Source of the DNA: Rhodococcus sp. AW25M09
GTDB lineage: Bacteria; Actinomycetota; Actinomycetes; Mycobacteriales; Mycobacteriaceae
Assembly (NCBI RefSeq): GCF_000333955.1
Contig: NZ_CAPS01000009.1
Location: forward strand, 1 to 64,000
Length of the DNA stretch: 64,000 nt
Direction of reading: 5' to 3'
The first letter of the stretch is position 1; each line of letters begins with the position of its first letter. Shown here in pieces: positions 31,762 to 58,759 of the stretch. The notes below the pieces were generated by a model. It worked only from the letters and a program-made list of their open reading frames with translations, was not told the origin of the DNA and did no database searches. The position numbers and the translations under genes are program-made.

Positions 31762-32430
31762 CTAGACCGGCCGAAAGCCCGCCCCCGGCGCTCCCGATGC
31801 GCTCAGCAATCGCAGCGATTCGGGTGCGGACGCATATGCGGTGGGACTGATCAGTGGCTCGCCGGAGGCGTGACTGGCGATGCCGACGAGCGTGGTTCCG
31901 ATCACCAGTGGCCCACCGGAGTCGCCCCAGACGGTGATGGCGTCGGACATCAGGTCGCTGCCACGAGCGTCGACGATGCTCCCACAGGTCAACCCACTGC
32001 CGAGGCCGGTTTTGCAGACCTGCTGGCCCACCGATCCGGTGCCGACGTCCGTCACGGTGACGCCGCCCAAGCTGGAGACGGGCGTGACGGCGGCGGGATC
32101 GAGAACGATGACGCCGTAATCCGGCCCCCAATGCTCGACGGCCGTGGTGCCGACCGGCGCGGTCGGCGATCCCACGAGAGTGACGGGGAGGCCGGGCCGG
32201 AGGATGCAGTGACCTGCGGTGAGGGCAACGAGCCGGCCGGCATTGTCGTATCCGACGGCAGCGATGGAGCACACCGTCAGGTCGTCGAGGCCTCCGGTGG
32301 TGACGAAACCACTACCGGGTCCGACGACCGGTAGTGGTGCGGCAGCAGCGGTTCCGGGGGCCATCGCGCTGACCGCCAGCACCGCGGCAGCGAACAGTCC
32401 ACTGACACAACCGAGTCGAGCCTTCTTCAT
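31762..32430 (-). CDS. Secreted chymotrypsin-fold serine protease (copy 1)
   Basis: 222 residues from ATG 32430, with AAGGA 9 bp upstream. A signal peptide ends near AAAAPL. The chymotrypsin-type triad is present: LTAGHC (His), DYGVIVLDP (Asp) and WGDSGGPLV (Ser). Two Cys pairs fit the fold. No propeptide is apparent, unlike streptogrisins. A close paralogue lies at 45587-46243 (a shared segment such as FVTTGGLDDLTVCSIAAVGY corresponds to YVTTGGLDDLTACSFAAVGY), after the second NRPS-methyltransferase pair. Confidence 0.87.
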   Translation of the reverse strand: MKKARLGCVSGLFAAAVLAVSAMAPGTAAAAPLPVVGPGSGFVTTGGLDDLTVCSIAAVGYDNAGRLVALTAGHCILRPGLPVTLVGSPTAPVGTTAVEHWGPDYGVIVLDPAAVTPVSSLGGVTVTDVGTGSVGQQVCKTGLGSGLTCGSIVDARGSDLMSDAITVWGDSGGPLVIGTTLVGIASHASGEPLISPTAYASAPESLRLLSASGAPGAGFRPV

Positions 32431-32517
32431 GGTGGGCATTCCTTGTCGACGAACGTTCGGGGCGGGACGCACATCGGCGGCCCGATCCTGGCCCTGTGAA
32501 CGTACTTCAGGAACGCA

Positions 32518-32694
32518 TCACGAGCGAACCGTGCGACATCGAATCAGCACCGCAACTCCCATCCCGATCGAAGCCAGGATCAACGGTGCAGCTATGGCCA
32601 TGTTTGCGCCGATGGCGATGAACAGGACGAGAAGCGCCAGAGCCGCGAGAAAGTACACAGCGGCGAAACGTGGCGTCCAGAGAACTGTGCTCAT
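32518..32694 (-). CDS. 58-residue membrane protein
   Basis: The frame runs from ATG 32694 to TGA 32518 and is preceded by a strong GAGGAGG site. It has two hydrophobic segments, FAAVYFLAALALLVLFIAIG and MAIAAPLILASIGMGVAVLI, ending in a basic tail (RCRTVRS). The start site quality and composition support a real gene. It lies between the NRPS-1/methyltransferase pair and protease copy 1. No family is recognised. Confidence 0.6.
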   Translation of the reverse strand: MSTVLWTPRFAAVYFLAALALLVLFIAIGANMAIAAPLILASIGMGVAVLIRCRTVRS

Positions 32695-32839
32695 GGATCC
32701 TCCTCAGCAGAAGCTATCTCACTCGGACAATGGACGAGACAGTCCCCGACCACGACCGTGGTCATGGAGCCCGGACCACGCACCCTTTCGTTAGCCAGAG
32801 TACTTAGTTGAACCCTCCAGTCAAGCGTCGGTCGCAACA

Positions 32840-33718
32840 TCACTTCGCAGGTATGTCTCCGGCTTCGAGCGTGAACTGCACGACGTCGATGCGTGAATTC
32901 TTGAATCGTTCCGACGACCCGGTGAGGTACTGAACGTACTTGTCGTACGTAGCCTCCGAGGACACGGCAATCGCCGCCTCCCGCGAAGCAATCAGTTTCT
33001 CGGCCCACGTGTCGAGGGTCCTCGCGTAGTGCAGCCTCAGGGGATGCTCCCGAAGTAACTCGAAGCCTGCCTCGGCCGCCTTCGCTTTCACGGTCTTGAC
33101 CAGCGTCAACTGCCCGCCGGGGAAGATGTCGCGCAGAATGAAACGGGAGAAGTGCGCATCCTCACGGGTGAGTCCACCCCCGCCGGAGGCCGGATCGGGC
33201 GGCGTGATCACGATGGTGTGCAACAACATTCGCCCGCCTGGCCGCAACACCGAGCGGCACTTGGCGAAGAAGGCAGAGTATCGCTGACGCCGAAAGTGCT
33301 CGAAGGCGCCGATGCTGACGATGCGGTCGACGGGCTCGTCGAATTCCTCCCACCCCTGCAACCGGATGTCGACGACGCGCTCGCTCGGCAGCTCGGCTAC
33401 CAGCGCTCGGGCCTTGTCGTGCTGATTTCGGCTCAAGGTCAGACCGATGACGTTGACGTCGTACTTCTCGACGGCCCGCTTCGCGAGAGCGCCCCATCCA
33501 CAACCGATGTCGAGCAGCGTCATCCCCGGCTCGAGGTCCAGCTTGCCCAGGGCCAGGTCGATCTTGGCGGTCTGCGCCTCCTCGAGCGTCATGTCCTCGC
33601 GCTCGAAGTAGGCGCAGCTGTACGTCATGCTCGGATCGAGGAACAGCGCGAAGAAATCGTCCGACAGGTCGTAGTGTGCCCGGACGTCATCGACGAACGG
33701 CTCCAGTTGTTCGCTCAT
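32840..33718 (-). CDS. Mycolic acid cyclopropane synthase-family methyltransferase (copy 1)
   Basis: 292 residues. The start ATG 33718 overlaps the NRPS-1 stop by one base (TGATG). It is a class I SAM methyltransferase: YDLSDDFFALFLDPSMTYSC near the N-terminus, the SAM-binding GMTLLDIGCGWGALAKRAVE near residue 65, and the C-terminal LTGSSERFKNSRIDVVQFTL. Length and motifs match mycobacterial CmaA/MmaA/PcaA proteins, which add cyclopropane or methyl groups to long acyl chains. The NRPS linkage suggests action on an NRPS-bound or NRPS-destined lipid, which is inference. Confidence 0.9.
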   Translation of the reverse strand: MSEQLEPFVDDVRAHYDLSDDFFALFLDPSMTYSCAYFEREDMTLEEAQTAKIDLALGKLDLEPGMTLLDIGCGWGALAKRAVEKYDVNVIGLTLSRNQHDKARALVAELPSERVVDIRLQGWEEFDEPVDRIVSIGAFEHFRRQRYSAFFAKCRSVLRPGGRMLLHTIVITPPDPASGGGGLTREDAHFSRFILRDIFPGGQLTLVKTVKAKAAEAGFELLREHPLRLHYARTLDTWAEKLIASREAAIAVSSEATYDKYVQYLTGSSERFKNSRIDVVQFTLEAGDIPAK

Positions 33719-36700
33719 CACGCGACGCCCTTCCCCACAGAATCGGTACCGATCACTCGGCCTAGTGCCCGGGCACCGCGCTCGCCCAGCATGTCTTCGT
33801 GTTCCACATCGACCCGGTGAACCGAGATCCGGCCGTCGACGAAGTCCGTCCATTGCTGCGCACCGTGCGAGCCGCGGGCGGCAAAATAGTGCACCGGCCC
33901 CTCGAACACCGCCGGTTCGTACGACGCCACCCAGCCGGGGGACGATACGACCGGCCGGAACATCCGGCGCAGATGATCCTCGGTGAGAAAAGCCAATTCG
34001 CTTCTCGTACTGCGCAATCGATCCACGATTGCCTCGAACGAGCCGCCTTCGACCCCGAGTTGACGGGCGAGATCTTCGATCTCGAACTCCGCGACACCCT
34101 CCGGTGCCGTGAGCTGTGCATCGACGAGTGCGAGCAGTGCCACGTCCTCGCCGTCCGACTGCAGTTGCGCCGCAACAGCATGCGCGATCACGCCGCCGAG
34201 CGACCACCCGAGCAGGTGATAGGGCCCGTGGGGCTGCACAGTGCGAATCTCCTGCACGTACCTGGCGGCGAATTCCTCGATCGACGACGGTGCGGCGTCG
34301 ACGTTCGAGATACCCGGATCCTGTAATCCGTACAACGGGCGGTCTGTCTCGCCCAGTCAACGACAGGTAACTCCACGCGATTCCGATGGCCGGATGCACA
34401 CAGAACAGCGGGGCACCGACGCCGTCGGCCCGGACTGGGAGCACCACCTCGAACGCAGCATCAGAGAGGGCACCGACGCTTTCTCCTGCGTCGAGTTGCG
34501 CTGCCAGGGCGGCGATCGTCGGGTGCATCAGCAACAGGCTGATCGGAAGCCGGCGATCCAGCCGGTCCCCGAGTGCATCCATCACCTGCACCACCGAGAG
34601 AGAGTGCCCGCCGAGGTCGAAGAAGTTGTCGTCGATCCCGATGTGTTCGGCGGCAATGTCCAGAACGTCGGTGAACTGCGCGTGCACCAGGTGTTCGCTC
34701 GGTGAACGCGGGGGACGCCGTTCACTCGACAGAACCGACGGGGTCGGCAGCATTCGTACATCGACTTTGCCGGACAACGTCATCGGAAGCGCGTCGACGA
34801 CGGTGACGGTGGTCGGCACCATGAATGCCGGCACCGTTCCCGCCAAGAAGTCACGCACTGCCCGCGGTTCGACCGAGCCCACCACGTACGCAGCCAACGA
34901 GTGCGCGTGGCCGATCACGCTGGCCTGGCGCACCTCCGGGTGACGCAGCAGAGCCGCCTCGACCTCGGCCAGCTCGACGCGATGGCCGCGAATCTTGACC
35001 TGTGAATCCACTCGGGCCAGATATTCGAGTTCGCGTGCACCGGAACGAATCACCCAGCGCACCAGGTCGCCGGTTCGGTACAAACGGCCGTCGCCGAACG
35101 GATTGGCAACGAAACTGCTTGCCGTCATGCCGGTTCGACCGACGTATCCCTCGGCAAGACCTGCCCCGCCCAGGTAGAGCTCCCCCACGACGTTGTTTCC
35201 CACCGGGCGCAGACGCGTATCGAGCACCACTGCGTCGTAGCCCCGAATCGGTCCGCCGATGGTCACCGGGCCCGCCGCACCGGTCAGGCCCCAGTCACGC
35301 TGGTCCGTCGTGCAGGTACTCATGACGGTCCCCTCGGTGGGACCGAAGGCGTTGAACACCGAGCGACGACGCGACCATCGTTGCAGCAGAGCGGAATTGA
35401 CGGCCTCGCCCGCCATGACGATCACCCGAAGCGATGGAGTTGCTGCCGAATCGGTGACCTGCAGGACGGTCGGCGTGAGGCACGCGTGGGTGACTCCGTA
35501 CCGATCTATCAGCGCTTCGAGCTCCCGACCGCCGTGCACGTCGGACGGCACGATCACCGAGCCGGCCCCGGCTCCCACCGCCATCAGCATCTCGAAAATC
35601 GACGCATCGAAACTCGGTGATGCGAATTGAAGAACCCTGGAGTCCGGCTCCACGCCGAACAGCTCTCGCTGACTCTGCACGAGATTTGCGATGCCGCGGT
35701 GCGTCACCCGAACGCCTTTCGGTGCCCCGCTGGATCCAGAGGTGTAGATGACGTAGGCCACGCTGCTCAGCGGTGGTCGACGCGCCTCGACGTGGTCGAG
35801 CTCCTCACCGGTGATCGTCAGCCAGTCGCTACCGGCCGAACCGAAGTCCACGGACGAGATTCCTGTGACCGGGGCAGCGTCGTCGAGAATCTCCTGTATC
35901 CGTGCAGCAGGCTGCGACGGGTCGATCGACAGGAACCCGGCACCGGCCTTGGCCACGGCCCACACTGCGGTGACATATCCGACCGATCGTGGCAGCGCGA
36001 CCGCTACCAGATCTCCCAGCCGGATGCCCGACCGTACGAGCCTGTCTGCCAATGCATTCGACTGCCGATCCAGGTCTCGGTAGGTCAGCGCCCTCGAGCC
36101 GTCGATCACGGCGACGTTCTCGGGCCAGGTATTCGCCGCCTGCTCGAACACCGTGGCCAGTGGGTACTGCTCGGGCGCGCTCTCCTGGCGAGAGACCCCG
36201 ACCGATGGGCCCTGTCGGAAGTCCGCGCTGCCGAGGCGAATGTCCGGTGTGGTCGACACCAGATTCAGCACCGCGGTCAGACGCTCCGCGAATCCGGCGA
36301 TCACGGCGTGCGAGAACCTGGTGGCGGAGTATCCGAGCTGTCCGGTGAGCCCGGCCTCGGACTCGTCGACCAGGACCTCGAGGTCGAATTGGGTGTCGGT
36401 GATGTCCACGCGCCGCGGGACGATCGGCTGGGACTCCAGTTCGATGCTGGGAGTTGCCGTGTCTCCGAAAGCCAGCAGCACTTGGAAGAGCGGGTGTGTG
36501 TCGACGGCGCGGGTAGGTTGCACTGCGTCCACCACCGACTCGAACGGCACGTCCGAGTTCGCGAACGCATCGAGGTCCCGGTCGCGTACCTCGGTCACGA
36601 AGTCCTCGAACGTCGTCGACGGATCGACGTCCGTCCTGAGCACGACGGTACCGACGAACATGCCGACGAGGTGGTCGAGCGCCGGGTCGGCTCGTCCCGA

Positions 36701-39700
36701 CACCGGCGTCCCGATGGCGATGTCCTGGGTGCCACTGGCCTCGGCGAGTACGGCGGCCAGCGCTGCATGGACGACGACGAACACGGTCGCACCCAGCCGA
36801 TGCGCGAGCGACCGGAGTCGAGCCAGATCTTCCGGGCTCACCGAGAACTCCACCGGCGTCGCCTCGTGTGACGCGTCCGGGGTTCCGGTCGGCAGGTCGA
36901 GAAATTCGGGTAGGCCGGCGAGGGTGCGACGCCAGAGCTCGAGCTGATCGGACGCCACCGCGTCCAGGACATCGTGCTGCCACAGCCGATAGTCCGAGTA
37001 ATCGACTGCGAGCGTATCGAATTCGGGGGCCGAACCGGACGTCCTGGCCAGCAGAGCGATCTCGAGGTCTCGGGCCAAGGGGCTAAGCGACAGCCCGTCG
37101 ATCGCGATGTGATGGGCGACGACGGTGAGCACCCGCTCGCCGCCTCGTTCGGTGCACACCAATCGCAACGGCGCTTCGACGGTCAAATCGAAGCCGTGCA
37201 GTGTCGATGCATCGACGCTCGCGTGCGCGTCGTCCAACGTCGACAGCACGATCTGCGGATCGAGAACAACCGTGACGGGACCGTCGCCGGTCGAGGGGTA
37301 CACCGTGCGCAGCGGTGTGTGCCGCTCGAGTACATCCGCGATCGCAGCACGCAGGACGCCCGGATCGAGGTCGGCCGGAAGCGGCACCTCGAAGGCGATG
37401 TTGTACGCGGCCGATGCCGGATCGTATCGATTCTGCAGCCAGATTCGTCGTTCGGCCGGTGCCAGGCCGGAGTACGAGCGCGCGTCGCCGCGGTGCACCA
37501 GGGCAGGCAACGGTATGTAGTTCTCGGACAGTGATTCGATCGCCGATGCGAGCTGTGTCGCGGTGGGCGACTCGAAGATCGTGCGCACCGGAACTCGGGT
37601 GCCGAGCGCCGCACCGATCCGGGTGGCGGCCCGCGTCGCGGCGAGCGAGTCTCCGCCGAGGACGAAGAAATTGGCGTCGACGGCCGGATTCTCGATGCCC
37701 AACGTGTCGGCGAAAATCCCGAGGATGACGTCCTGCGCCAACGTGCGAACGGCACCCCCGTCGCCGACGGTGGGGTCCTGAGCATCCAACGCCCCGAGGT
37801 CCACCTTGCCGTTGTCGGTCAACGGAATCCGGTCGATCTGCGCGATGGCGGCCGGCATCATCGCGAGCGGAAGGTGCTTCAGCAGCCACTGCGCGGCCTC
37901 CTGCTCGTCGATACCCACCACCCAGGCGAGCAGTCTGTTCTCACGTACCGCCGCTGCTGCGCCGCGCACATCGGGGTGTGCGAGGAGAGCAGACTCGATG
38001 TCTCCCAGCTCGATTCGTACACCACGGACCTGAACCTGAGAGTCGCGGCGGCCCCGGTACTCCAGCAGACCCGAGACACCCCGGCGCACCAGATCACCGG
38101 TTCGGTAGAGCCGGGTGCCGCCCTGGCCTGCCACGAACCGCTCGGCCGTCGCCGCCGTACCGAATCGGTACCCGCGCGCCAACCCGACCCCGCCGAGATA
38201 CAGCTCCCCGATGCCCCCGGGTAGCACCGGGTGCAACCGGTCGTCGAGCACGAATGCACCCACGTGATCGAGCGGTCGACCGATCGTGACCGGCTCACCG
38301 GCGCGGAGCGATTCGGCCAACGTGGCCACCACCGTCGCCTCGCTGGGGCCGTAGGCGTTGAGCATCGACCGTTCGGGTGCCCACGCGTCCACGACGTCCG
38401 AGCCCAGCACGTCTCCCCCGACGGCGACAGTCTCGATACCCGCCGTCGGCGGCACCGTCGCAAGCAAAGCAGGTGTGGACAGGTAGTGAGTCACGCGATG
38501 CTCGGTGAGAAATGCCGACATCTCGTCTCCGCCGAGCAGGTCGGGCGGCGCGATCACCATCGTCGCGCGGGCCCCGAACGCCAGCACGAGTTCGAGAATC
38601 GCGGCATCGAAGTTGACCGAGTATCCCTGCAGCACTCGAGAATTCGACGATACGCCGTATGGTCCCACCACCTGCCGCGCTAGCGCGTACACACCTTGGT
38701 GCGTCACCACCACGGGCTTGGGTGTTCCCGTGGAGCCCGAGGTGTGAATCACGTAAGCCGGGTGTGCAGGGTGCAGCGTTCCCAAGCGCTCCTGGTCGGT
38801 CACGGGCTGGTCGCTCAGTGGCTCCGCCTGATTCTCGTAGAGCCAGTTCACTCCTGGTTCGAGTCCACCGAAACCTATCTCGATGTGCGCCAACATCTGC
38901 TCTCGACGAATCGCCGGATAGCGCGGATCCACGGGCACGAACGCGCCGCCGGCCTTCACCACGGCCCACAGGGCAACGATGTACTCGGCCGATCGCTCGA
39001 GCGAGAGTGCAACAAGAGTTTCCGGTCCGACGCCGTGTGCGATCAACAGTCGAGCAATCCGGTTCGAGCGAGAATCGAGCTCGGCGTAGGTCAGTGATTG
39101 CAGACCGTCGATGGCGACAGAATCCGAGAGAGCACTCGTAGGAAATACGTCGAGCAGCGTCCCCTCGGGCTGCGGCAACGGCAGAGCCGGATCGTCGGCA
39201 AGAGCGAGGTCACCGATGACGAAATTGGGGTCCGCCACGGCTGCGTTCAGTATGTTCAGAATCGCCGACGCGAACTGTTCGACGGTGGCCTGCTGGTACA
39301 GGTCCAGCGCGTACTCGATCTGCCCGGCCAACGAGGCCGAATCCTCGTGCCCATCCTCGAGCACGAGGTTGAGGTCGAATTCTGAGGTACGGGTGGGGAT
39401 CTCCAGCACCGCCACCGGCAGATCCTCCACCGATCGGTGCGGCGCGTTGGCGAAGGCCAGCATCACCAAGAACAGCGGATGCCGGTCGAGGAATCGGTCG
39501 GTGACCAGGGTGTCGACGATGCGCTCGAACGGAACGTCTGAGTGCGAGAACGCATCGAGGTCTGCGGTCCGCACTGCGCCGAGCAAGTCCGCGAAACTGG
39601 CGGCGGGGTCCACGGTGACTGCGAGAGGGAGGGTTCCGACGAACATTCCGACCATTTCGTCGAGCGCTTCGTGACCTCGCCCCGCAGATGGGGACCCGAT

Positions 39701-42700
39701 GACCACCCGGTTGGAGGTGCCGAATCGACTCAGAGCGGCAGCGACCGCAGCATGGACCACCATGAACGTGGTCGAGTTGGTCGATCGGGCCAGCTCACGA
39801 ATCCCCGCGTGCAGCTGTGCCCCGATCTCGAACGGAACCGCACCGGTGATCATCGATTGCACTGCGGGCCTGGGAAAATCGGTCGCTAGCTCGGCCAAAG
39901 CGGTATCGCTGCCGTCCAGGACCGAATCACCCAGGACCGAGGTCCAGAACTCGAGCTGCTCGTCGGCGACGGTGTCCACGTAGGCCCGATTCCATACCGC
40001 GTACTGGCTGTACTGTGCGCGCAGTCGTGGCCACGTCGGCGCGTGGCCTGCGCTGCGCGATGCGTGCGCGAAAGCGAAGTCGCGGACCAGCGGGTCGATC
40101 GACCAGCCGTCCATCGAAATGTGGTGCACGACGACTACGACAACGGTGTCACCGGATTCTTCCACGCTCAGAAGTGTTGCGCGGATGGGTACTTCGTCCG
40201 CCACATCGAATCCCTGCGCCGCAGCCGCCACTACCGCAGAGTCCAGATCGCGCTCCGACACGGCCTGTGCGGGTACGTCGACGAGGACGGTATCGGTGGG
40301 CCGCACCACCTGGCGCGGACCATCGCCGTCGTCCGGGTAGTACGTGCGCAACGATTCGTGGCGATCGGCCACGTCGCGAAGCGCCGTCAGGACCAATGCG
40401 GTGTCCTCGCCGCCGCTGACACGGATGGCAATCGGCATGTTGTATGCCGGCGATGCCGGATCGAACCGATTGACGAACCACATCCGCTGCTGCGCGTAGG
40501 ACAGCGGGATACGTTCGGGCAGAACGGTATCGAGCAGATCCAGGGATACCTCCTGCGTCGCGGACACATCGATGGCCGCCGCGACTGCGCGGACCGTGGG
40601 GTCGGCGAACAGCGCGGTCAGTGAGATCGACGAACCGAGGCGTGCGAGAACTCGAGTCGCACTGAGCGAGTCACCGCCGAGCTCGAAGAAGGAGTGCTCG
40701 CGGCCGACCTTGTCGACATCGAGGACATCGGCGAACGCTGCGGCCACCGTGCGTTCAGTATCGGTCTGGGGTGCAACGTATTCGGTGTGCGTCGGCGCGG
40801 TGGGGGCGGGAAATGCCCGGCGGTCGACCTTGCCGCCGGGCGTCATCGGCAGTGCATCGAGCACCACGATCTGGCTGGGAACCATCCACGCGGGCAAACG
40901 GTTCCGAAGGTGGCTCTCGAGACCCTCCGAGGCTCCGGTGACGTACAGGACCAGTCGGTTCTCGCGGATCACCGCCGCAGCGGCAGTCACTCCGGCGAAA
41001 GTCGTTGCCGCGAATTCGATCTCGCCGAGTTCGAGACGTCGCCCGTTCAGTTGGATCTGCTGGTCGCTGCGGCCGAGGTACTCGAGCGACGAACCGTCGA
41101 CGGCCCACCGGACGATGTCGCCCGTGCGGTACAGCCGCGCACCGTCCATGCCCGGGTCTGCGACAAACCGCAGCGATGTCGAGCCAGCCTGCCCGTCGTA
41201 TCCACGGGCGATGCCGTCACCACCGAGGTACAGCTCGCCGACGCCTCCGTGCGGAGTGGGCCGCAGCTGGGCGTCGAGCACCAATGCGCGGACGCCCGGC
41301 AGCGGCGCGCCGATGGTGACGCGGCCATCGGCCGTCATCGGGGCCGACACCGTCGCAAGTACCGTCGCCTCGGTCGGTCCGTAGGCATTGAGCATTGTCC
41401 GCTCGGCAGAGGCGAAGCGATCGCGCAACGCAGGAGAGCACTCTTCTCCGCCGACGTCGAAGACCTCGATGGAGCCGAGGTCTTCCGGGTCGAGTGTCGC
41501 CAGCACTGTGGGCGAGGTGATCAGATGCGTGATCTTCTCGTCGTCCAGCAGTTGGGCGAGGGCAGGCCCGGCGTACACGTCGGCCGGGGCGAGGACGAGG
41601 GTGCCGCCCGCAGCGAACGCGGCGAGAATCTCTTGGATGGACGCGTCGAAGACCGGCGAGGCCGCGTGCAGCACGCGTGAGTCGGCGGTGACGGCGTACC
41701 GCTCGACGACGTTGGCGGCCAGTTGCGCGAGTCCACGATGGGTGACGCTGACGGCCTTGGGTTTTCCGGTCGACCCCGAGGTGTGGATGACGTAGGCCTC
41801 GTTGTCGAGGTGCACCGCCGGCTGAGTGAACGGTAGCGCCTCCGCGTCGAGCAGGTCCTCGATGGCGAACCAGCGGATGGCGCTCGGAAGGTGTTGCAGC
41901 ACAGGTCGAGTGGTGATACCGAACTCGACGCGTGCATCAGCGAGCATGGCGGCCAACCGCTCGGCAGGCTCAGTGGGGTCGAGGGGGACGAACGATGCGC
42001 CGGTGGTCGAGACCGACCATACGGCCAATACGGATTCGTAGGAGCGTGCCAGCGCAACGGCCACGCGCGTCTCCACATCTACGCCATGCACGATCAACTG
42101 CGCCGCAACATGTTCCGCAGCCGCGGTGAACTCAGCGCTGGATCGATCGATTCCCCCTGCCCGCACCACTGCGCCACTCGTCAGCATCGAGGGCAGCAGG
42201 GCAGGTGCCGCGGTGGCCGCTGGATGCGCCTGCAGCAGTTGGGCCTTCTCCTCTTCGCCCAGCACATCCAGCTCCGACACTGTGAGTCCCTCGGGCGCAC
42301 TCACCAGCGCACGCAGCAGGACGAGGAATCGGCGGTGGTGGGCGGCCAGCTCGTCGATGGTGTAGAGGGCCGGGTCCCCGAGGAAGTCGACGCGGGTACT
42401 CGTGCCGGCGACACCGGGGTAGACGTTGACCATCATGTCGTCGATGGGGCCGCTGGAGAGCACGCGGTATTCGCCGATGACGTCGCCGAGCCGAATTGTG
42501 CTGTTGTACATCATGATGTTGACCGTGGGACCGAACACACCGCGTCCCGCTGCGGCACTGCCGGTGCCGTCGCCGGTGGACCGCTGCATGTCCTCGACGC
42601 GGAACCGCTGATGACGAAGTGCGCCGGTGAGTTCCACCTGGATCCGTCGGAGTAGTTCTTCGACGGTGACCCCTGGTTCGACACCGATACGCAGCGGCAC

Positions 42701-43603: not shown

Positions 43604-43686
43604 TCCCCGACCTCCTCAACGCACGCGCCCTGACTACTTCGATTGGCCGGCGCGCCGCTCATAGCGTTGATGTTTCATCGCCCGTT

Positions 43687-47766: not shown

Positions 47767-47832
47767 GTGGGGCTCCCTAATCTGTGTACAACGCTTTGAT
47801 GATGGTTCCATGTATCGGATGTTCGGGCACGG

Positions 47833-48711
47833 TTACGGCATCGGATCCGACTTTCCTGTCAGCGTGAACTGCACGACGTCGATGCGCGAATCCTCGAATC
47901 TTGACGAGCTCCCGGTGAGGTACTCGACGTACTTCTCGTAGGTCGCCTGGGAAGACAGCGCTATGGCCTGCTCGCGCGAGGCGACGAGCCTGCCCGCCCA
48001 CTCGTCGAGCGTCCGTGCGTAATGCGGGCCGAGCGCCTGCTCGCGGCGTAATTCGAATCCGGCCTCGGCCGCCTTCGACTTCACCATCTTCGCCAGCGTC
48101 AGCTGCCCGCCTGGAAAGATGTCGCGGACGATAAAGCGCAGGAAGTGTGCGTCCTCCCGGGTCAGACCTGCTGCGCCAGAGCCAGGTTGAGGCGGCGATA
48201 CGACGATGGTGTGCAACAGCATTCGCCCATCGGGCCGCAACAGCGAGCGGCACTTCGCAAAGAAGGCGGAGTGCCGCTGACGCCGAAAATGCTCGAATGC
48301 TCCGATGCTGACGATTCGGTCGACCGGCTCGTCGAATTTCTCCCACCCTTGCAACCGGATGTCTGCGACCCGTGTGCTCGACAGTTCGGCCACGACCTTG
48401 CGGCCCTGGTCGTACTGGTTTCGGCTCAGCGTCAGACCGATGACGTTGACGTCGTACTCCTCGACGGCCCGTTTCGCCAAGGCTCCCCACCCGCAGCCGA
48501 TATCGAGCAGGGTCATCCCCGGTTGCAGATCCAGCTTGCCGAGGGCCAGATCGATCTTGGCCATCTGCGCTTGTTCGAGCGTCATATCTTCATGCTCGAA
48601 GTAGGCGCAGCTGTAGGTCATGCTCGGATCGAGAAACAACCCGAAGAACTCGTCCGACAGGTCATAGTGCGCCCGAACATCATCGACGTACGGTTCCAAC
48701 TGCTTGCTCAT
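47833..48711 (-). CDS. Mycolic acid cyclopropane synthase-family methyltransferase (copy 2)
   Basis: 292 residues, the same length as copy 1. ATG 48711 lies 4 bp after the NRPS-2 stop. Motifs: YDLSDEFFGLFLDPSMTYSC, GMTLLDIGCGWGALAKRAVE, and the C-terminal LTGSSSRFEDSRIDVVQFTL. It is a SAM-dependent lipid methyltransferase or cyclopropanase by family. A long upstream in-frame reading (to 49056) is the TE in another frame and is not coding. Confidence 0.9.
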   Translation of the reverse strand: MSKQLEPYVDDVRAHYDLSDEFFGLFLDPSMTYSCAYFEHEDMTLEQAQMAKIDLALGKLDLQPGMTLLDIGCGWGALAKRAVEEYDVNVIGLTLSRNQYDQGRKVVAELSSTRVADIRLQGWEKFDEPVDRIVSIGAFEHFRRQRHSAFFAKCRSLLRPDGRMLLHTIVVSPPQPGSGAAGLTREDAHFLRFIVRDIFPGGQLTLAKMVKSKAAEAGFELRREQALGPHYARTLDEWAGRLVASREQAIALSSQATYEKYVEYLTGSSSRFEDSRIDVVQFTLTGKSDPMP

Positions 48712-48715
48712 CACG

Positions 48716-51700
48716 TCACTCCCTTCGCCGCTGAGTTTTCGACGCCGAGACGAGGCCGAGTATTCGGCCCAGTGCACGGGCACCGACTTCGCCCAACATG
48801 TCTTCGTGTTCCACATCGACTCGGTGCAGCGAGATCCCGCCGTCGACGAAGTCCGTCCAGTGCTGCGCCCCACGCGAACCGCGAGCGGCCACATAGTGAA
48901 TCTCGCCCTTGAACACCGGCGGGGTGTAGGACGCCACCCAGCTCGGAGCGTCGACAACGGGTTGATACATGCGGCGCAGATGATCGACCGTGAGAAATCC
49001 GAGTTCGCTTCTGCTCCGACGTAATTGATCCACGACTTCCTCGAACGACGCGCCATTCACACCGAGCTGACGAGCAAGATCGCCGACCCCGAATTCTGCG
49101 TTGTCGAGCTCTGCGGCGCCCTCGGGTGCGGACAGTTGCGCGTCGACAAGTGCGAGCAACGCTACCTCCTCACCGTCTGCCTGCAGGAGCGCGGCGACGG
49201 CATGCGCAATCACTCCGCCGAGCGACCACCCCAGCACGTGATAGGGCCCGTGCGCTTGAACAGTTTGGATCTCACGCACGTATCGCGCGGCGAACTCCTC
49301 GATCGACGATGGCGCGGCATCACCGTTCGCAATACCCGGAACCTGCAGCCCGTACAGCGGGCGGTCGGTCTCGCTCAGCAATGACAGATAGCTCCATGCA
49401 ATGCCGATAGCCGGGTGCACACAGAACACCGGCGCGCCGACGCCATTGGCACGCAACGGCAGCAGTACATCGAACTCGCTGCCGGATGTATCAGTACCGG
49501 CCTCGAGGTGCGCTGCCAACGCAGCGACTGTTGGATGCAGCAGCAGCGCACTCACTGGAACCCGGCGATCCAGTTGGCCTCCGAGTGCGTCCATCACCTG
49601 CACCACCGACAGGGAGTGACCACCGAGATCGAAGAAGTTGTCGTCGATGCCGATGTGATCGGCAGGTACGTGCAGCACATGGGAAAATGCGCCGTGGACC
49701 AGTAGTTCGTGCGGCGACGACGGAGCGAGCCGTTCACTCGACATCACCGAGGGCGTCGGCAGCTTGGTCGCATCGACTTTGCCGGACAACGTCATCGGCA
49801 GTGCGTCGACCATCGTCACCGTTCGCGGCACCATGAACGCGGGCACTGTAGTACCGAGGAAGTCGCGTGCCACCCGCGGATCGACGCTTCCCACCACGTA
49901 CGCGGCCAACGAATCCGCATGGCCGATCACGCTGGCCTGCTGCACATCCGGGTGACGCAGCAATGCCGCCTCGACTTCGGACAGCTCGACGCGATGTCCG
50001 CGGATCTTGACCTGTGAGTCCACTCGGCCCAGATATTCGAGTTCCCGCAGGCCGTCACGGACCACCCAGCGCACGAGATCGCCGGTCCGGTACAGCCGGC
50101 CCTCGCCGAAGGGATCTGCGACAAAGCGGCTTGCAGTCAAACCGGGTTGTCCCAGATAGCCCTCGGCCAGTCCGTCACCGCCCAGATACAGCTCCCCCAC
50201 CACGTTGTCGACAACCGGTCGTAGTCGCGCGTCCAGAACCGCGGCGTCGAAACCGCGTATCGGTCCGCCGATAGTCACCGGGCCCATCGCATCCGCGTGC
50301 TGATTCCAGTCATGCAGGTCGGTTGTGCAGGTACTCATGATGGTGCCCTCGGTGGGTCCGTATGCGTTGAACACCGACCGCGCACGCGACCACCGTTGCA
50401 GCAGAGCTGAATTGACAGCTTCACCTGCCATGACGACCACCTGCAGGGATGGGGTTGACTCTGGGTCGGTCACTTGCAGGACGGTCGGAGTGAGGCACGC
50501 GTGGGTCACCTGGTGACGATCGATGAGAGCTTCGAGTTCTCGCCCCGCGTACACCTCGGCGGGCACGATCACCGCGCGGGCTCCGGCTCCGAAGGCCAGC
50601 AGCAGCTCGAATATCGACGCATCGAAACTCGGTGATGCGAACTGGAGGACGCGAGAATCGGGCGTCACCTCGAACAGATCCCGTTGGCTCTGGACCAGAT
50701 CCGCGATGCCGCGATGCGTCACGCGCACACCCTTGGGTACCCCGGTGGAGCCGGAGGTGTAGACGACGTAGGCCAGATCATCGAGCCGCGCATGCCGCAT
50801 CTCGAAGTGGTCGAGTGACGCATCGGTGACCGTCAACCAGTCGCTACCAGCCCAGTCGTTATCAGCAGAGCCGAGGCCGCCTGACGTGATGCCGGTGATC
50901 GGTGCCGCACGGTCGAGAATCTCGCGGATGCGCGCTGAGGGTTGCGACGGATCGATCGGCAGGAAACCTGCGCCGGTCTTGGCCACAGCCCAGACGGCAG
51001 TGATGAACCCGGCAGATCGGGGCACAGCCACCGCAACCAGATGTTCGGGCCGAACGCCGCCGTGAACGAGCCTGTTTGCCAATGCGTTCGACTGCTGGTC
51101 CAATTCGCGGTACGTCAGTACGTGAGAACCATCGACCACTGCGATGTTCTCCGGCCACTGCCGCGCGGCCTGCTCGAACACCGTCGCCACTGTGTAACGT
51201 ACTGCTGCACTGTCCCGGTGGGCAACGACGGCGGGATCGACCTGAGCGAACTGGGCGCTGCCCAGTCGGATATCCGGTTGCGCTGCAACCAGTGTCAGCA
51301 CCAAGGCCAGCCGATCTGCGAGTCCGACGGCAACTCCCCGGGAGAACCGCGCTGCCGAGTAACCGAGGTTTCCGGTCAAGCCGGCCTCGGATTCTTCGAC
51401 GACGAACTCCAGATCGAATTGGGTCGATGCGATGTCGATGCGGCGCGGGATGGTCGCGCCCTCGCCGAGTTCGATTGTCGGCGTTGCTATATTGCCTACA
51501 GCGAGCAGTACCTGGAACAGTGGATGGGTATCCACGGCGCGAGCAGGTTGCACGGCGTCGACTACCCACTCGAACGGCACGTCCGAGTGGGCGAACGCAT
51601 CGAGATCGCGGTCGCGTACCTCGGTGACGAACTCCTCGAACGTGTTCGACGGCACCACCTCCGTCCTGAGCACTACGGTCCCGACGAACATCCCGACCAG

Positions 51701-54700
51701 GTCGTCGAGCGCTGGATCGGAGCGGCCGGAGACCGGCGTGCCGATGGCGATGTCCTGCGTGCCACTTGCTTCGGCGAGCACGGCTGCCAGTGCGGCATGG
51801 ACGAGAACGAAGACGGTCGCCCCGAGCCGGTGTGCGAGAGCCCGGAGGTCGGCGTGTGTGCCTGAGTCGACAGAGAACGGCACCGGACTCGCCTCGACTG
51901 TGTTCTTGACCGTGGCATCGGGGTTTCCGGTCGGCAAATCCAGGAAGTCCGGCAATCCGTTGAGGGTGCGGCGCCAGAAATCGAGTTGTTCGGCCGCGAC
52001 CGCGTCCAGCACATCCTGCTGCCATCGGCGGTAGTCAGCGTAATCGACTGCGAGCGTGGTGAATCGAGGCGCGGCTCCAGAAATCCTGGCCGTGAGTGCT
52101 ATGTCGACGTCGCGTGCCAACGGACCGATCGACAGCCCGTCGAGTGCGATGTGATGTGCGACGACGGTCAACACTCGCTGGTCGTCCCTCGTCTGCACTG
52201 TCAGCCGTATCGGTGGCTCGAGGGTCAAGTCGAATCCCTCGTTCGCCGATGTGATGGCGTGCTGCTCCCCCAACATCGAGACCACTGTCTGCGTTTCCAC
52301 GACCATCGTCACCGGACCGTCGACAGTGGCCGGAAATACCGAGCGCAACGGCGTATGGCGCTCCAGAACATCCGCTATGGCAGCGCGCAGTACGTCGAGC
52401 TCGAGGTCCGCCGGGAGCGGCACCTCGAAAGCGATGTTGTATGCAGCCGACGCCGGGTCGAAGCGATTCTGCAACCAGATTCGACGCTCGGAGGGTGCCA
52501 GACCGGTGTAGGAGTTCGCGTCCTGCCGATGCTCCAGTGTGGGGAGCGGCGTGTAGTCGTCGGACATCGCCTCGATTGCCGAGGCCAGCAGTTGTGCGGT
52601 GGGAGCCTCGAACATGGCCCGCAGCGGGACGCGGGTGCCCAATGCGCTACCGATGCGAGTGGCTGCTCGCGTCGCGGCGAGCGAGTCACCACCGAGGACG
52701 AAGAAGTTTGCATCGACCGCAGGCTCGTCGATGCCCAGTGTGTCGGCGAAGATCCCGAGGATGACCTCTTGCGCCAACGTGCGTGCAGCCGCGGAGTCGG
52801 TGTCGATGAGAGACGGCGAGGTCAGCGCCGCGACGTCCACTTTGCCGTTGGTGGTCAACGGAATTCGATCAATACGGGTGATGGCGGCCGGCACCATCGT
52901 CAGGGGGAGGCGACCCAACAGCCACAGCGCGGCGTCCTGCTCGCCCACCCCCACCACCCAGGCGAGGATCCTGTTCTCGCGCACCGCCGCCACTGCGCCG
53001 CTCACGTCGGGGTGCAACAGAAGAGCAGACTCGATGTCTCCCAGCTCGATACGCACTCCGCGGATTTGCACCTGTGCGTCGCGGCGACCCCGATAGTCCA
53101 GCAGACCCGAGACCCCTGTCCGCACGAGGTCGCCCGTTCGGTACAACCGCGCCCCACCTGGGCCGGCAACGAATCGGTCAGCGGTCGCTGCCGGGCGTTC
53201 CCGGTACCCGCGCGCCACACCGACGCCGCCGAGATACAACTCGCCTATACCGCCGGCCGGCACCGGCTGCAGCCGGTCATCGAGAACGACAGCCGCGACG
53301 TGGTCCAACGGACGCCCGATCGTGACAGGCTGGCCGCTGTGGAGTGAGTCGGTCAGCGTCGCCACCACTGTGGCTTCGGAGGGACCGTATGCATTGAGCA
53401 TCAGTCGATTCGGCGACCACTCGTCGACCACTGCCGCACCCAGCACGTCCCCTCCTACTGCAACGGTCTCGATACCGGACGTCACAGGTACCGTCGCGAG
53501 CACCGCGGGCGTAGACAGGTAGTGCGTCACTCGATGCGTGGTCAGGAACGTCGCCATCTCGACGCCGTCGATCACATTCGGTGGAGCGATGACCATCGTC
53601 GCCCGGGCACCGAAAGCGAGTATCAGCTCGAGGACGGCGGCATCGAAGTTGACGGAGTAGCCGTGCAGCACTCGCGAATTCGCAGTCACCCCATATCGGG
53701 TAACCGTCTGCCGTGCAAGTGCATGAACTCCCCCGTGTGTGACCACGACAGGCTTGGGCACTCCGGTGGAACCCGAGGTATGGATGACGTACGCCGGGTG
53801 CGCGGGTGCCAGCGTTGCAATGCGGTCCTCGTCGGTCAGAGGCAGATCACTGTATGCATCGGCCTGCCATTCCTCCAACCAGACAACATGCGCCTCGGAT
53901 CCTCCGAACCCGACGCTGATGTCGCGGAGCATCTGCTCGCGTCGGACTGCAGGGTACTGCGGATCGACGGGCACGAAGGCACCACCGGACTTCGCGACTG
54001 CCCATTGCGCAACGATGTACTCGGACGAGCGGCCGAGGGACAGGGCAACCAGAGTCTCTGGACCGACACCATGTGAGATCAAGAGCCGCGCAATACGATT
54101 CGAGCGGCGATCGAGTTGCATGTACGTCAGTCGTTCGTCGCCGTCGATGGCAACTGCATCGTCGAGGACTCCCGCACCATCCGGCAACACATCGAGCAGC
54201 GTTCCGCTCCGCATCGCAGTCGGCACCATCGGCGCGGCCGCAAGCGGCAGATCGCCGACGACGAAGGTCGAGTCCGCGACTGCCGCGCGCAGAATCGTCA
54301 GGACCACTGATGCGAACTGTTCGACGGTTGTCCCCCGGTACAGATCGAGCGCGTACTCGATTTGACCAGCGATACCCTGCGATTCGGCATGGCCGGTGAC
54401 AGTTTCGGTGAGCACCAGGTTGAGGTCGAACTCAGAGGTATGGGTGGGAACCTGCAGCACCGAGAGGGGCAGATCCTCGACCGACCTGTGCGGCGCGTTG
54501 TCGAAGGCCAACATCACCTGAAAGACTGGATGTCGGTCGAGGGATCGGTCCGTCGCCACGGCATCCACGATGTGCTGGAACGGGAGCTCGGAGTGGGCGA
54601 AGGCGTCCAAGTCAGTAGCGCGGACGGCGTCGAGCAGATCCCCGAAACTTCCGGACGGCTCCACCGTGACTGCAAGAGGAACGGTTCCGACAAACATGCC

Positions 54701-57700
54701 GACCATCTCGTCGAGTGCTTCGTGACCTCGGCCAGCAGAGGGGGATCCGATCACTGTTCGGTTGGACCCACCGAAACGACTCAACGCGGCAGCCACAGCA
54801 GCGTGGACGACCATGAACGTAGTCGAATTGGCGGTGCGGGCCATCTTTCGGATGGCTGCGTGCAACCGAGGTTCGATCTCGAACGGAATTTCCGCTGTGC
54901 GCATCGATTGCGACGCGGGGCGGGGGAAATCGGCCGGTACGGCCGCCAACGCGGAGTCGGTGTCGTGCAGCACCGAGATCCAGTACCGCAGCTGCCCGTC
55001 CGCAACGGAGTCCACGGTTGCGCGATTCCATACTGCGTACTGACTGTATTGAGCGGGCAGCCGTGGCCACGTGGGCGCATGGCCCGCGCTGCGAGATGTG
55101 TAGGCGGTAGCGAAGTCGCGTACAAGTGGATCGATCGACCACCCGTCCACGGAAATATGGTGCACTACCAGGACCACAACCGTCTCGCCCGTGTCATCGA
55201 TAGTGAGAACTGTTGCTCGAATGGGAACTTCGGCCGCGACGTCGAATCCGGCGGAGGCCAGTGCTGCGATGGCGGGCACGAGCCCCTGCTCGGAAACGGT
55301 ACGAACGGGAACGTCGGTCAGGACGTCTGCGGTAGGCCGAATCACCTGCCGCGGCCCGTCACCATCGTCGGGGAAATACGTCCGCAGCGACTCGTGGCGT
55401 TCCAGGACGTCACGCAATGCTGTGAGCACCAGGGACGAATCGCTACTCCTTGCTAGTCGCACGGCCACCGGCATGTTGTAGGCCGGCGAGCCGGTATCGA
55501 ACTGGTTGAGAAACCACATGCGTTGTTGCGCAAAAGCCAGCGGAATTCGCGGTGGCACAGGCGTATCGAGAAGTTCGAGCGATACCTCGTCCACGATGGA
55601 CGAGTCGATGACCGCTGCCACTGCTCGAACCGTGGGGTTGGTGAACAGCTCGACCAGGGAGATTCCGGGGCCGAGCCTGGCGATCACGCGGGTTGCGCTC
55701 AGCGAGTCACCGCCGAGCTCGAAGAAGGAGTGGTCGCGCCCCACTTCTTCGGCATCCAGGACCTCGGCGAATACCTCCGCAACAGCACGCTCCGTGTCGG
55801 TACGCGGAGCAACGTATTCGGCAACAAGGGTTGCGGAGGGGGTCGGAAGCGCACGGCGGTCGACTTTGCCGCCCGCCGTCATGGGCAGGGTGTCGAGCAC
55901 CACGATGTGATGGGGCACCATCCATGCCGGCAGGTTTGCCCGGAGGTGGGCGCTCAAACCCTCGATGCGTCCGGTTACGTACAGGGCCAGTCGATCATCT
56001 CGTGCAACGGTGACTGCGCCAAGCACTCCAGGGAGACACGCTGCTACGGAGTCGATCTCACCGAGCTCGAGCCGTCTCCCGTGTAGCTGAACCTGTTGAT
56101 CTCTGCGACCGAGGTACTCGAGGGAAGATCCGTCGACGGCCCATCGGACGATGTCGCCGGTTCGGTAGAGGCGCGCTCCAGGTACACCTGAGTCTGCAAT
56201 GAACCGAGTCGATGTCGCACCGGGTTGGCCGTCGTATCCGCGGGCTAGTTGATCGCCGCCGAGATACAGTTCGCCGATACCACCGTGCGGTGCAGACCGC
56301 AGGTACGTGTCGAGCACCAGTGCGCGTACCCCCGGTAGCGGCGCACCGATGGTGACTCGTTCGTCGGGCACCATCGGCGCAGACAGAGTTGCCAACACCG
56401 TTGCCTCGGTCGGTCCGTAGGCGTTGAGCATCACCCGTTCCGTGGACGCGAATCTGTCACGTAACGGCGGTGGGCATTCTTCTCCGCCTACGTCGAAAAC
56501 TTCGATGCCCTGCAGATCAGTCGGGTCGAGGGTCGCGAGAACGGTCGGCGAGGTGACCAGGTGGGTGATCTTCTCGATGTCTAGGAAACGAGCCAGAGCC
56601 GGGCCCGCGTAGACGTCGGCTGGGGCGATCACGAGCGTTGTGCCTGCCGCAAACGCCGCAAGAACTTCTTGGATCGATGCGTCGAATACCGGTGAGGCAA
56701 GGTGCAACACACGAGAGCTGCTTGTCACGGAGTACCGCTGAACGACGTTGGCCGCCAGCTGCGCGAGTCCGCGATGAGTAATGCTCACCGCCTTGGGCGT
56801 GCCGGTCGATCCCGAGGTATGGATGAGGTACGCCTCGTTGTCGAGATGTACTTCGGGCCGAGTGAAAGGGACGGGTGCGGAATCGAGGAGATCCTCGATC
56901 GCGACCCAGTCGACGGCACCTGGTAGTCGGTGCCGCAGTGCGCGCGTGGTCAGACCTAATGTCACCCCTGCATCGGTGAGAACCGCGGTCAGTCGCTCGG
57001 CGGGCTCGTGGGGATCGAATGGGAGGAACGATGCGCCGGCGGTCGAGATCGACCAGGCCGCAAGAACGGATTCGTACGACCGTTCCATTGCAATCGCGAA
57101 GCGGGACTCTGGACGGGCACCGTAAGTGCTGAGTTGCGCGGCGACATGTTCCGCGGCCGCAACGAAGCGCTCCCCGGAGCGGTCGACCCCACCGAAGCGG
57201 ACCACTGCGCCCCTACACATCAGCGAGGGCAGCAATGCCGGCGCAACGGTGGCCGAGTGATGCGCGATGGGTCGGGCTGCCTGCCCTTTTGCCTCGAGCA
57301 CCTCGAGGTCGGACACGGTGAGCCCATCCGACGCGTGAACCAGGGCGCGCAGCAGATGCAAGAAGCCCCGGTGGTGAGTTGCGAGTTCCTCGGCCGTGTA
57401 GTTGGCCGGGTTGCCGAGGAAATCAACGCGTGTGCTGGCTCCAGCCACTCCCGGGTATACGTTGACCATCATGTCGTCGATCGGGCCGCTGGAGAGTACT
57501 CGGTACTCGCCGATGACATCGCCGAGCCGGATTGTGCTGTTATACATCATGATGTTGACCGTCGGCCCAAATACTCCGCGTCCGGCCCCACCACTATTTG
57601 TGTTCACGCCGATAGCGCGCTGCATGTCCTCGACCCGAAAACGCTGGTGACGTAGCGCACCGGTGAGTTCCACCTGAATTCGGCGCAGTAGTTCTTCGAC

Positions 57701-58639
57701 CGTCACCCCACGTTCCACTCCGATTCGAAGCGGCACGACGTTGGACATCATGCCGGACGAATCCCGCAGCCTCGTGGTCGCTCTGCCGGACACCGGCAAG
57801 CTGAGCATGACGTCATCGGTGTCGGTCATCCGCGCGAGGTACAGCGCGAAGGCAGCAAGAACAACCGGGACGTCGGAGGAGTTGTACCGACGGGCCACTG
57901 CGGCCATGGCGTCGGTGAGGTCTGCGTCCAATACAGCACCTACGCTCACCGTCACACCGGATGGTGGCGTGGGTTCACGGGGGTTGCCGGCAAGGCGCGG
58001 GGCATCGGAGTGCCCGTCCAGCCTGTCGAGCCAGTAGCGCCGGTCGGTGTGATAGCGAGATGAATCTGGATACGCCGCTTCGTAGTCATAGATCTCGCGC
58101 ACACCGACAGCACGGGTCTTCTCCACCTCGGTGTCGGTTATCAGGGCGGTGTAGACCGCTGCAGTGCGTTCCTGCACAGCTATGGCACCGAGCCCATCCA
58201 TCACCACGTGATGTGCACGGCTGTACCAATAGAAGTGGGCTTCGCCGACCTGGATGATTTCGGACGAAATCAATTGGTCACGAACAAGATCGACGGGCCT
58301 GCGATATTGCTCGTCCATGTAGCGCTGAGCGTCTACGACCGCCCGGTCACGGTCTCTGAAATCGCGATAGATCATCGCGTACGGCGCGTCGAAGTCCGGC
58401 CACTGGTACGGCTGACCGTCATGCATCACAATTCGTACGAACGTCGATTCGAGTTGCCTGCATGCAATATCCGTAGCTCGGATCAGCACGGATGGATCGA
58501 CATCGCCCCGAATCTCGACGTACTGCGCGATGGTGAACGGGACATCAGGCGAGAGTTGCTGGGCGAAGTAGATGTTCAGTTGGGCAGCCGACAGGGGAAA
58601 GTGGCCGTCGTCCAACGGCTCACCCGCCTCTGGCGACAC
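48716..58639 (-). CDS. Three-module nonribosomal peptide synthetase 2 (intact)
   Basis: 3,307 residues from GTG 58639, with GGAGGG upstream. Domain order matches NRPS 1: C1 (HHVVMDG near 145), A1 (TSGSTG near 608), T1 (near 978), C2 (HHISVDG near 1163), A2 (near 1621), T2 (near 1987), C3 (HHIALDG near 2163), A3 (near 2630), T3 (near 3008), TE (GWSLGG near 3138, His in HEDML near the end). The TE is intact. C1 is EntF-like; A-domain pocket residues match or nearly match those of NRPS 1. No MbtH gene is in the window. It should make an acyl- or aryl-capped tripeptide and release it by the TE. Confidence 0.95.
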
Positions 58640-58727
58640 TTGCTGCCCTCCTCGACATCCACGGCCCGACGGCTCTGCTGATTCAGCTCACACGCCACCG
58701 AGCAACGTCGACCCACGTCGCCCGTCT

Positions 58728-58759
58728 ACAAAGTAGTCGACTCGATGTGAATGCTCTAC
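58728..58759 (-). promoter_or_regulatory. Conserved promoter element upstream of NRPS 2
   Basis: The second copy of the 32-bp block, 89-120 bp before the NRPS-2 GTG. Key words ACAAAGTAGTCGAC and TGTGAATGCTCTAC. The reverse reading offers TTCACA, 17 bp, TAGACG as -35/-10. Identity to the NRPS-1 copy is 29 of 32, higher than in the flanking noncoding DNA. Confidence 0.6.

Follow-up and report, generated by a model that had tools for sequence, protein, structure and literature searches.

Putative lipopeptide synthetases paired with DUF4012 genes in exopolysaccharide loci of Rhodococcus and other genera

The window analysed here, a 64,000-nucleotide stretch of the Rhodococcus sp. AW25M09 genome (contig NZ_CAPS01000009.1; genome G000 in our internal labels, where L, G and g numbers denote loci, genomes and genera), encodes two nonribosomal peptide synthetases (NRPSs), each in a cassette with a mycolate-type methyltransferase (MT) and a protease, and a DUF4012 protein whose gene lies between the cassettes. 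The most widely recurring part of this arrangement is the NRPS together with DUF4012, which sits in exopolysaccharide (EPS) loci where scanned; the MT and the protease are additions seen in this genus. We hypothesize that the product of the locus is a tripeptide with a long N-acyl chain that serves a cell-surface EPS system, with the MT and the protease as optional accessories, and we give this explanation an even chance of being correct.

DUF4012 and the exopolysaccharide setting

The DUF4012 gene (43807-45582, plus strand; 591 amino acids (aa)) is divergent from the first NRPS gene (NRPS1; 34336-43603 as far as a frame break, minus strand), and the two are separated by an intergenic region of 203 bp (43604-43806). 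Across six rows, the window and five loci of the type B layout described below, the mean column identity of this region is 84%. Among the 37 genomes of the genus (g1) that were searched, 25 have NRPS orthologues, called at a thioesterase (TE) identity of at least 52%. A DUF4012 orthologue (at least 65% identity) occurs in all 25 of these and in none of the 12 genomes lacking the NRPS, making it the most constant partner in the genus. Fisher values for the co-occurrence of DUF4012, NRPS, MT and protease treat related genomes as independent.

The pairing extends well outside the genus. Of the fifteen genera with a DUF4012 match, all but g2, g15, g17, g20 and g31 were sampled, and neighbours were sought within 1.5 or 3 kb on either side, or less where a contig ended. 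In seven other genera the NRPS adjoins DUF4012 in 85 of the 89 sampled places. A divergent NRPS is found within 1.5 kb upstream of DUF4012 in g23 (31/32), g27 (16/18) and g9 (12/12); for these genera, as for g29 below, all places found at E 1e-100 were taken. Elsewhere the NRPS is upstream of DUF4012 in tandem: g8 (17/18), g10 (5/5), g18 (3/3) and g26 (1/1). For these four the sample comprised 18/24, 5/8 and 3/8 genomes, and one of two places, respectively. Both g27 exceptions have a gene for a bacterial tyrosine kinase (BY-kinase) nearby. Including G063 (g28), where the two genes are again divergent, the pairing occurs in two orientations across nine genera.

Some DUF4012 genes have no NRPS beside them. 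A second DUF4012 paralogue of the genus was linked to an NRPS in 0/15 cases; in G006 and G007, which are outside these 15, it lies ~4 kb past the NRPS 3' end and does not adjoin it. The 17 DUF4012 loci of g29 are likewise unlinked (0/17), and 13 of them have a BY-kinase within 2.5 kb. In a DUF4012 tree of 62 rows (57 NRPS-paired, 5 unpaired), two changes of label suffice, and the three unpaired rows from the genus of the window form one clade (support 100/100).

In g8 the NRPS and DUF4012 genes are separated by a gene that Pfam assigns, in G395, to the low-molecular-weight phosphotyrosine phosphatases (PF01451); tblastn finds it at 17 of the 18 places. Such phosphatases counter BY-kinases in EPS systems. 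At L216:14654-15262, a phosphotyrosine phosphatase gene overlaps the NRPS end.

We also considered whether DUF4012 is a relative of the LytR-CpsA-Psr (LCP) proteins, an idea that came from a motif seen by eye. Neither Pfam nor PDB profile searches gave it support. None of 13 DUF4012 proteins had an LCP match in Pfam, and hhalign against PF03816 proteins gave probabilities of 3.1% and 2.0%, in tests that used four LCP proteins and shallow profiles. No DUF4012 relative was found in viral contigs. Among the listed matches in the open-access literature, no title or abstract connected an NRPS of these bacteria with DUF4012 or with EPS loci.

The EPS genes begin at ~60 kb and continue to ~102 kb of the contig. 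Within the window they include a Wzy_C O-antigen ligase/polymerase-like protein (60058-61434, minus strand) and hexapeptide proteins, and past it are two sugar transferases, a GDP-mannose 4,6-dehydratase, an epimerase, a UDP-sugar dehydrogenase, a glycosyltransferase and a Wzz protein. The presence near the cassettes of a priming transferase, Wzy, Wzz and sugar-nucleotide enzymes fits a Wzx/Wzy EPS locus. The two candidate Wzx flippases that were scanned (L057:1907-3178 and L058:9600-10928) have no Pfam match. At L058:15234-17934 (~99-102 kb of the contig) there are two tandem BY-kinase matches (31% and 34%), the second with a Wzz domain. A further BY-kinase, encoded within one of the cassettes (46240-47811, minus strand; 523 aa), is a Wzz/Wzc-like polysaccharide biosynthesis tyrosine autokinase, scoring 37.8 for the Wzz domain against a cut-off of 25.5 and 161.2 for TIGR01007 against 108.05.

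Polysaccharide genes were also found near the NRPS-DUF4012 pair in six of the seven places scanned outside the genus, a few proteins in each. G218 has a sugar transferase, UDP-sugar dehydrogenases and glycosyltransferases beside the pair, and G163 a sugar transferase. One of two pairs in G217 is accompanied by a sugar transferase, Wzy, a flippase, a pyruvyl transferase and a glycosyltransferase, the other by an acyltransferase, a UDP-sugar dehydrogenase and a Wzy_C match under the cut-off (29.7 against 31.7). A UDP-sugar dehydrogenase and a sugar transferase are near the pair in G044, and a flippase and Wzy in G045.

It is possible, if somewhat unlikely, that the NRPS makes an ordinary free lipopeptide, such as a surfactant, antibiotic or signal, and that its proximity to DUF4012 and EPS genes reflects common surface or biofilm regulation with no physical interplay. 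NRPS frames beside DUF4012 in other genera range from ~2,000 to > 8,000 aa; this variation in module number means that the peptide is not one fixed part outside the genus, and NRPS-less DUF4012 loci such as those of g29 also fit a free product. What argues for a closer tie is that the DUF4012 partner is kept in both orientations across the nine genera, and that a phosphatase gene stands between NRPS and DUF4012 in nearly all g8 places. We put the chance that the lipopeptide acts with the EPS system at about even, a reading based on gene content and arrangement.

Two cassette types and their accessory genes

Both cassettes are on the minus strand. Cassette 2 consists of NRPS2 (48716-58639; an open frame of 3,307 aa identified from the list of open reading frames (ORFs), Pfam and PDB profile comparison), MT2 (47833-48711; 292 aa), the BY-kinase and protease 2 (45587-46243), with successive spacings of 4, 21 and -4 bp. 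Cassette 1 has NRPS1, MT1 (32840-33718; 292 aa), a gene for a 58-aa protein (32518-32694) and protease 1 (31762-32472; 236 aa). The small protein appears membrane-like by eye, has no Pfam match, and has tblastn matches in L043 and L046. According to Pfam, each NRPS comprises three condensation (C), three AMP-binding (A) and three PP-binding (T) domains and a TE, arranged in NRPS2 as Cs-A-T-C-A-T-C-A-T-TE, where Cs is a starter condensation domain. In NRPS1 the Cs-A-T-C-A-T-C-A-T portion is followed by a TE in another frame (33718-34335), which MT1 overlaps by 1 bp. The NRPS1 frame exits the TE near 34335-34400, and the ORF list joins NRPS1 and MT1 as one 3,587-aa frame. This frame break may be a sequencing error in the 166-contig draft or a real lesion.

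These data bear out much of what the initial annotation observed: two minus-strand cassettes with NRPS, MT and protease in that order, on which coordinates and Pfam agree, a 292-residue MT adjoining the NRPS by a 4-bp gap (MT2) or a 1-bp overlap with the TE frame (MT1), and an inserted 58-aa gene or BY-kinase between MT and protease. Its figure of about 3,300 residues per NRPS holds for NRPS2 and fails for NRPS1, which is broken before the TE. Its description of the cassettes as duplicated is misleading, as the trees identify cassette 1 as the resident type of the relatives and cassette 2 as another type. It did not mention the EPS context or the DUF4012 gene between the cassettes.

Eighteen named loci from Rhodococcus and Rhodococcoides records, including R. 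fascians NBRC 12155 and A44A, define the two types. In type A (L047-L056) the order is NRPS-MT-BY-kinase-protease, with L053 and L055 lacking the MT. In type B (L039-L046) it is DUF4012/NRPS-MT-protease; the retrieved flanking sequence of L039 shows no protease. Trees place MT1 and the NRPS1 starter domain inside type B (top identity to relatives 92% and 96%), in clades that exclude MT2 and the NRPS2 starter domain with support of 98/98 and 100/98. MT2 and the NRPS2 starter domain also join type B (100/100), outside those clades, and the BY-kinase of the window groups with type A at moderate support (84/81). Since the trees of MT, starter domain and BY-kinase agree, the pair most likely consists of two cassette types brought together and would not be a recent local duplication. 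Recent tandem duplication within this genome could be suggested by the common gene order and by the 74% identity between NRPS1 (TE excluded) and NRPS2 across 3,104 columns. The nesting of MT1 and the NRPS1 starter domain among relatives, to the exclusion of their cassette 2 counterparts, and a BY-kinase of the other type contradict it, and we consider it extremely improbable.

The type B unit DUF4012-NRPS-MT-protease is located downstream of a BY-kinase, and some genomes have a Wzz-like gene on its other side, so that the unit lies upstream of that gene. We examined four genomes without the NRPS for an empty site. In G014 no gene of the unit separates the BY-kinase (L115:10926-12545) from the Wzz-like gene that comes after it (9910-10626), and in G024 two other genes lie between the two. 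G010 and G013 have the BY-kinase without the unit, and the site could not be matched. The unit may thus be gained or lost as a block, with one clean case. The window genome has no type B BY-kinase (63-67% identity in the relatives); a type A run with its own BY-kinase occupies that place. A plus-strand gene at 30558-31754 encodes a protein with matches in 11/37 genomes of the genus and no Pfam match over the cut-off; its relatives adjoin the protease in several type B loci and also occur near the empty site in G014 and G024.

The MT (cassette type, at least 60% identity) is beside the NRPS in 21 of the 25 NRPS-bearing genomes, and G006, G007, G019 and G029 have no MT match at E 1e-60. The adjacency proposed from this one genome is therefore conserved and not confined to it, the outcome that the initial annotation would have taken as a refutation, and its recurrence across the genus indicates that the cassette arrangement exceeds chance. 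The cassette protease (at least 66% identity) also occurs in 21 of the 25, and is missing from G006, G007, G027 and G035, where matches reach only 38-41%. Neither gene is found in the 12 genomes without the NRPS, in which the best protease matches are at most 48% identical and no cassette-type MT was detected. Fisher's test gives 9.8e-7 for each, which is not a clean probability for related genomes. Because NRPS-bearing genomes without one or the other exist, both genes are dispensable for retention of the NRPS.

Both MTs belong to PF02353 (E 7.8e-108 and 9.9e-106) and exceed the cut-off of the NCBIfam mycolic_MTase family (NF040660; 408.3 and 411.9 against 390 bits). The alignment of MT2 with MmaA2 (1tpy) and CmaA1 (1kp9) covers residues 2-285 of 292, and MT2 conserves the positions that correspond to CmaA1 E140, H167 and Y232 (counted by hand), which we take to have roles in this MT family. 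Apart from the cassette MTs themselves, 19 of the 21 genomes that carry one have no match at E <= 1e-60. MT relatives also occur in 40 plasmid records. Among 15 named loci with the MT in a separate frame, 13 have an overlap of 1-4 bp with the NRPS end and L048 has an 8-bp gap; a computed spacing of -91 in L047 was taken as a misread, as the NRPS frame ends at 10711. L050 (Rhodococcus sp. H36-A4) encodes NRPS and MT in a single 3,600-aa frame (806-11605). This fusion was considered as strong evidence of coupling and then downgraded, the sole fused frame being the result of a frame change at the NRPS end.

It is plausible that the MT acts on the acyl chain of the NRPS product. The MT could instead be independent of that product and share no more than an operon with the NRPS, its substrate being mycolates or an EPS-pathway lipid. 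Its 57% identity to a mycobacterial mycolic-type enzyme (among the matches listed) and its passing of the mycolic_MTase cut-off fit this alternative. So do L053 and L055, in which the start and end of the MT are fused around an in-frame internal deletion (~10700-10800) and the NRPS and BY-kinase frames are intact. MT-like genes are also present in the flanks of 6 of the 17 NRPS-less g29 DUF4012 loci, which weakens the coupling of MT to NRPS, and the MT may belong to the EPS side. The total absence of cassette-type MTs from the 12 NRPS-less genomes and the overlapping or closely spaced frames speak for a functional tie to the NRPS, and we consider independence unlikely. In two g29 loci (L195 in G393 and L196 in G329), a mycolate-type MT relative with 45% identity lies a few kb from a BY-kinase and DUF4012.

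The proteases are putative S1 proteases of chymotrypsin fold, an assignment based on the fold of a predicted model and the catalytic triad. His, Asp and Ser of the triad are invariant in 18/18 aligned rows (L043, which has a stop, was left out). The model of protease 2 (mean pLDDT 70), which by eye has a signal-like N-terminus, matches alpha-lytic and streptogrisin proteases in Foldseek, the first eleven with E values of 6e-6 to 4e-5, at TM scores of only ~0.4-0.5 against chymotrypsin-fold matches. The class is presumably S1E (streptogrisin/alpha-lytic type). Pfam does not match protease 2, and its score of 19 for protease 1 falls short of the 20.6 cut-off. In L040, L041 and L042 (type B) the protease starts 14-17 bp after the MT, and in window cassette 2 and 5/10 type A loci its start overlaps the BY-kinase by 4 bp.

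The initial annotation placed the protease in a single pathway with the NRPS, processing the NRPS product or an envelope partner. Its conserved triad and fold, its restriction to NRPS-bearing genomes, where the co-occurrence we checked was 21 of 25, and its short distance from the MT in type B are in line with that proposal. Four NRPS-bearing genomes do without the protease, and in type A its gene comes after that of the BY-kinase or overlaps it. We regard such processing as very unlikely and favour a protease that is an accessory of the EPS system.

Other genes in or near the cassettes include a GDSL lipase gene upstream of NRPS2. The proteins scanned across the interval 28.5-63.9 kb include no stand-alone acyl ligase; an AMP-binding enzyme is encoded at 3527-5011, 27 kb distant. 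The window also encodes an AurF-like N-oxygenase (PF11583; 23788-24756, minus strand) and a protein with an LppA match (27967-28524, minus strand), a lipoprotein that Pfam describes as confined to pathogenic Mycobacterium, encoded here in a Rhodococcus relative.

Predicted product and role at the cell surface

The starter condensation domain of NRPS2 (57320-58639, minus strand) is N-terminal, nearer to starter than to internal domains, and has an intact HHxxxDG motif. In a PDB ranking, RzmA-Cs takes the first to third places (7c1k, 1e-54), ObiF1 the fourth, CDA (4jn3) the fifth and EntF the seventh. The motif SRAHH.VMDGLGA is identical in all 19 NRPSs read (window, type A and type B), L045 being too short for the reading. 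A lipid-capped tripeptide, as initially proposed, is thus likely. In RzmA, acyl length is governed by residue 148, and with Q136A/Y138A/R148G or related combinations the domain comes to prefer C12-C16 acyl-CoA (PMC7804268). Because NRPS2 has small residues (S/A/A, counted back from HHxxxDG in the alignment) at sites 136/138/148, analogy with this one family member predicts a long acyl chain on the product.

The codes of the window A domains, read by hand with what we take to be the GrsA position scheme and an assumed final Lys, are DAQ(I/V)DGAVLK (A1), DALLAGAVVK (A2) and DAFCVAA(V/I)MK (A3). No amino acid could be assigned confidently from these codes, and PDB neighbours did not settle the matter. 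Code residues are near constant in the genus (seven of nine positions), and A2 and A3 agree with those of G063 in another genus. A1 was unparsed in L040 and A2 in L108, and rows from other genera were read in part only. In a survey of 28 strains, 69 of 79 NRPS families were putative lipopeptides and families of the R. fascians clade were noted (PMC5550956). The NRPS described here may be counted in that survey, the main text of which does not contain the word methyltransferase and which is not among the papers mentioning DUF4012.

Based on these features we propose the following mechanism. The starter C domain would acylate the first amino acid from a fatty acyl thioester, the three modules would build the conserved tripeptide, and the TE would release the product. 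The MT would be an optional tailoring enzyme, most likely methylating or cyclopropanating an unsaturated acyl chain. At the envelope, the lipopeptide could then act together with DUF4012 and the Wzz/Wzc-type BY-kinase in EPS polymerisation, export or retention, and the secreted protease would be a further accessory of the EPS system. The earlier interpretation thus finds support in part, namely for the lipid-capped tripeptide and the conserved NRPS-MT adjacency.

Several observations count against this explanation. Position in an EPS locus is no proof of joint action, and the explanation was read from sequence. The scan for EPS genes left out G063, G129 and G172; in G163 just one of three scanned proteins is an EPS gene, and in G137 (g18) neither of two proteins scanned from 16 kb downstream is. 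DUF4012 is a family without known activity, for which the LCP profile comparison offered no support, and it occurs without any NRPS in g29. In the window itself, NRPS2 has no DUF4012 gene of its own and NRPS1 is frame-broken. The starter motif differs in part in G006, G007 and the NRPSs read from other genera. The MT is deleted in L053 and L055 with the NRPS frame kept, is absent from G006 and G007, and is fused to the NRPS in a single draft genome, L050, where the reading frame changes within the final codons of the NRPS.

A more far-reaching possibility is that DUF4012-linked NRPSs constitute an undescribed glycoconjugate system. In such a system, found in mycolate-bearing actinobacteria, a Wzx/Wzy polysaccharide would have the lipopeptide as its acceptor, its terminator or its anchor in the membrane or outer layer. 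DUF4012 would be an extracytoplasmic joining or hand-over factor, and in one genus mycolate-type MTs would adjust the lipid anchor. We consider this system improbable, and the physical joining of lipopeptide and polysaccharide is to us a similarly long shot. If the two are joined, bacteria would have a previously unrecognized means of anchoring or modifying a surface polymer, with a possible bearing on the fatty acids of Rhodococcus EPS. Such EPS is reported to contain stearic and palmitic acid in ester linkage and sugars such as fucose, mannose and glucuronic acid (PMC12786566). We count the fatty acids in favour of the proposed EPS role of the locus; the composition fits the sugar-nucleotide enzymes encoded here and says nothing of a peptide.

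Rhodococci and their relatives encode many starter-domain NRPSs for which no product is known (PMC5550956). The recurrent DUF4012 partner and the EPS setting, with a BY-kinase or a phosphotyrosine phosphatase, suggest a testable cell-surface role for a set of these NRPSs and give the DUF4012 family a functional lead. Together they hint at a fatty peptide, as yet unexplored, that would be made for the surface coat of these bacteria.

Comparison with known systems

The NRPSs resemble those of rhizomide (RzmA) and CDA in having an N-terminal starter C domain with HHxxxDG, modular C-A-T organization and a terminal TE. They differ from them in their linkage to DUF4012 and EPS genes, in the mycolate-type MT and protease of the same run, and in the lack of a stand-alone acyl ligase among the proteins scanned between 28.5 and 63.9 kb. 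The cassette MTs are similar to the mycolic acid cyclopropane synthases MmaA2 and CmaA1 in family membership (PF02353, NF040660) and nearly full-length alignment, but are set in an NRPS operon. Likewise, the proteases share fold and triad with streptogrisin and alpha-lytic proteases, although the TM scores of ~0.4-0.5 are modest and the cassette proteases fall below the cut-off of the Rv1815 family.

The EPS locus of Bifidobacterium longum 105-A has a priming transferase, DUF4012 and wzz in a row, but no NRPS in the table rows considered here (PMC5412050).

Mycobacterial glycopeptidolipids are NRPS-derived lipopeptides, bearing sugars, of the surface of mycolate-bearing actinobacteria. They end in an amino alcohol produced by reductive release and carry single sugars. 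The system described here is similar in comprising a putative surface lipopeptide of a mycolate-bearing actinobacterium with sugars involved. It differs in that each NRPS ends in a TE domain, encoded for NRPS1 in the other frame, in place of reductive release, and in its association with a Wzy-type polymer locus that includes a BY-kinase.

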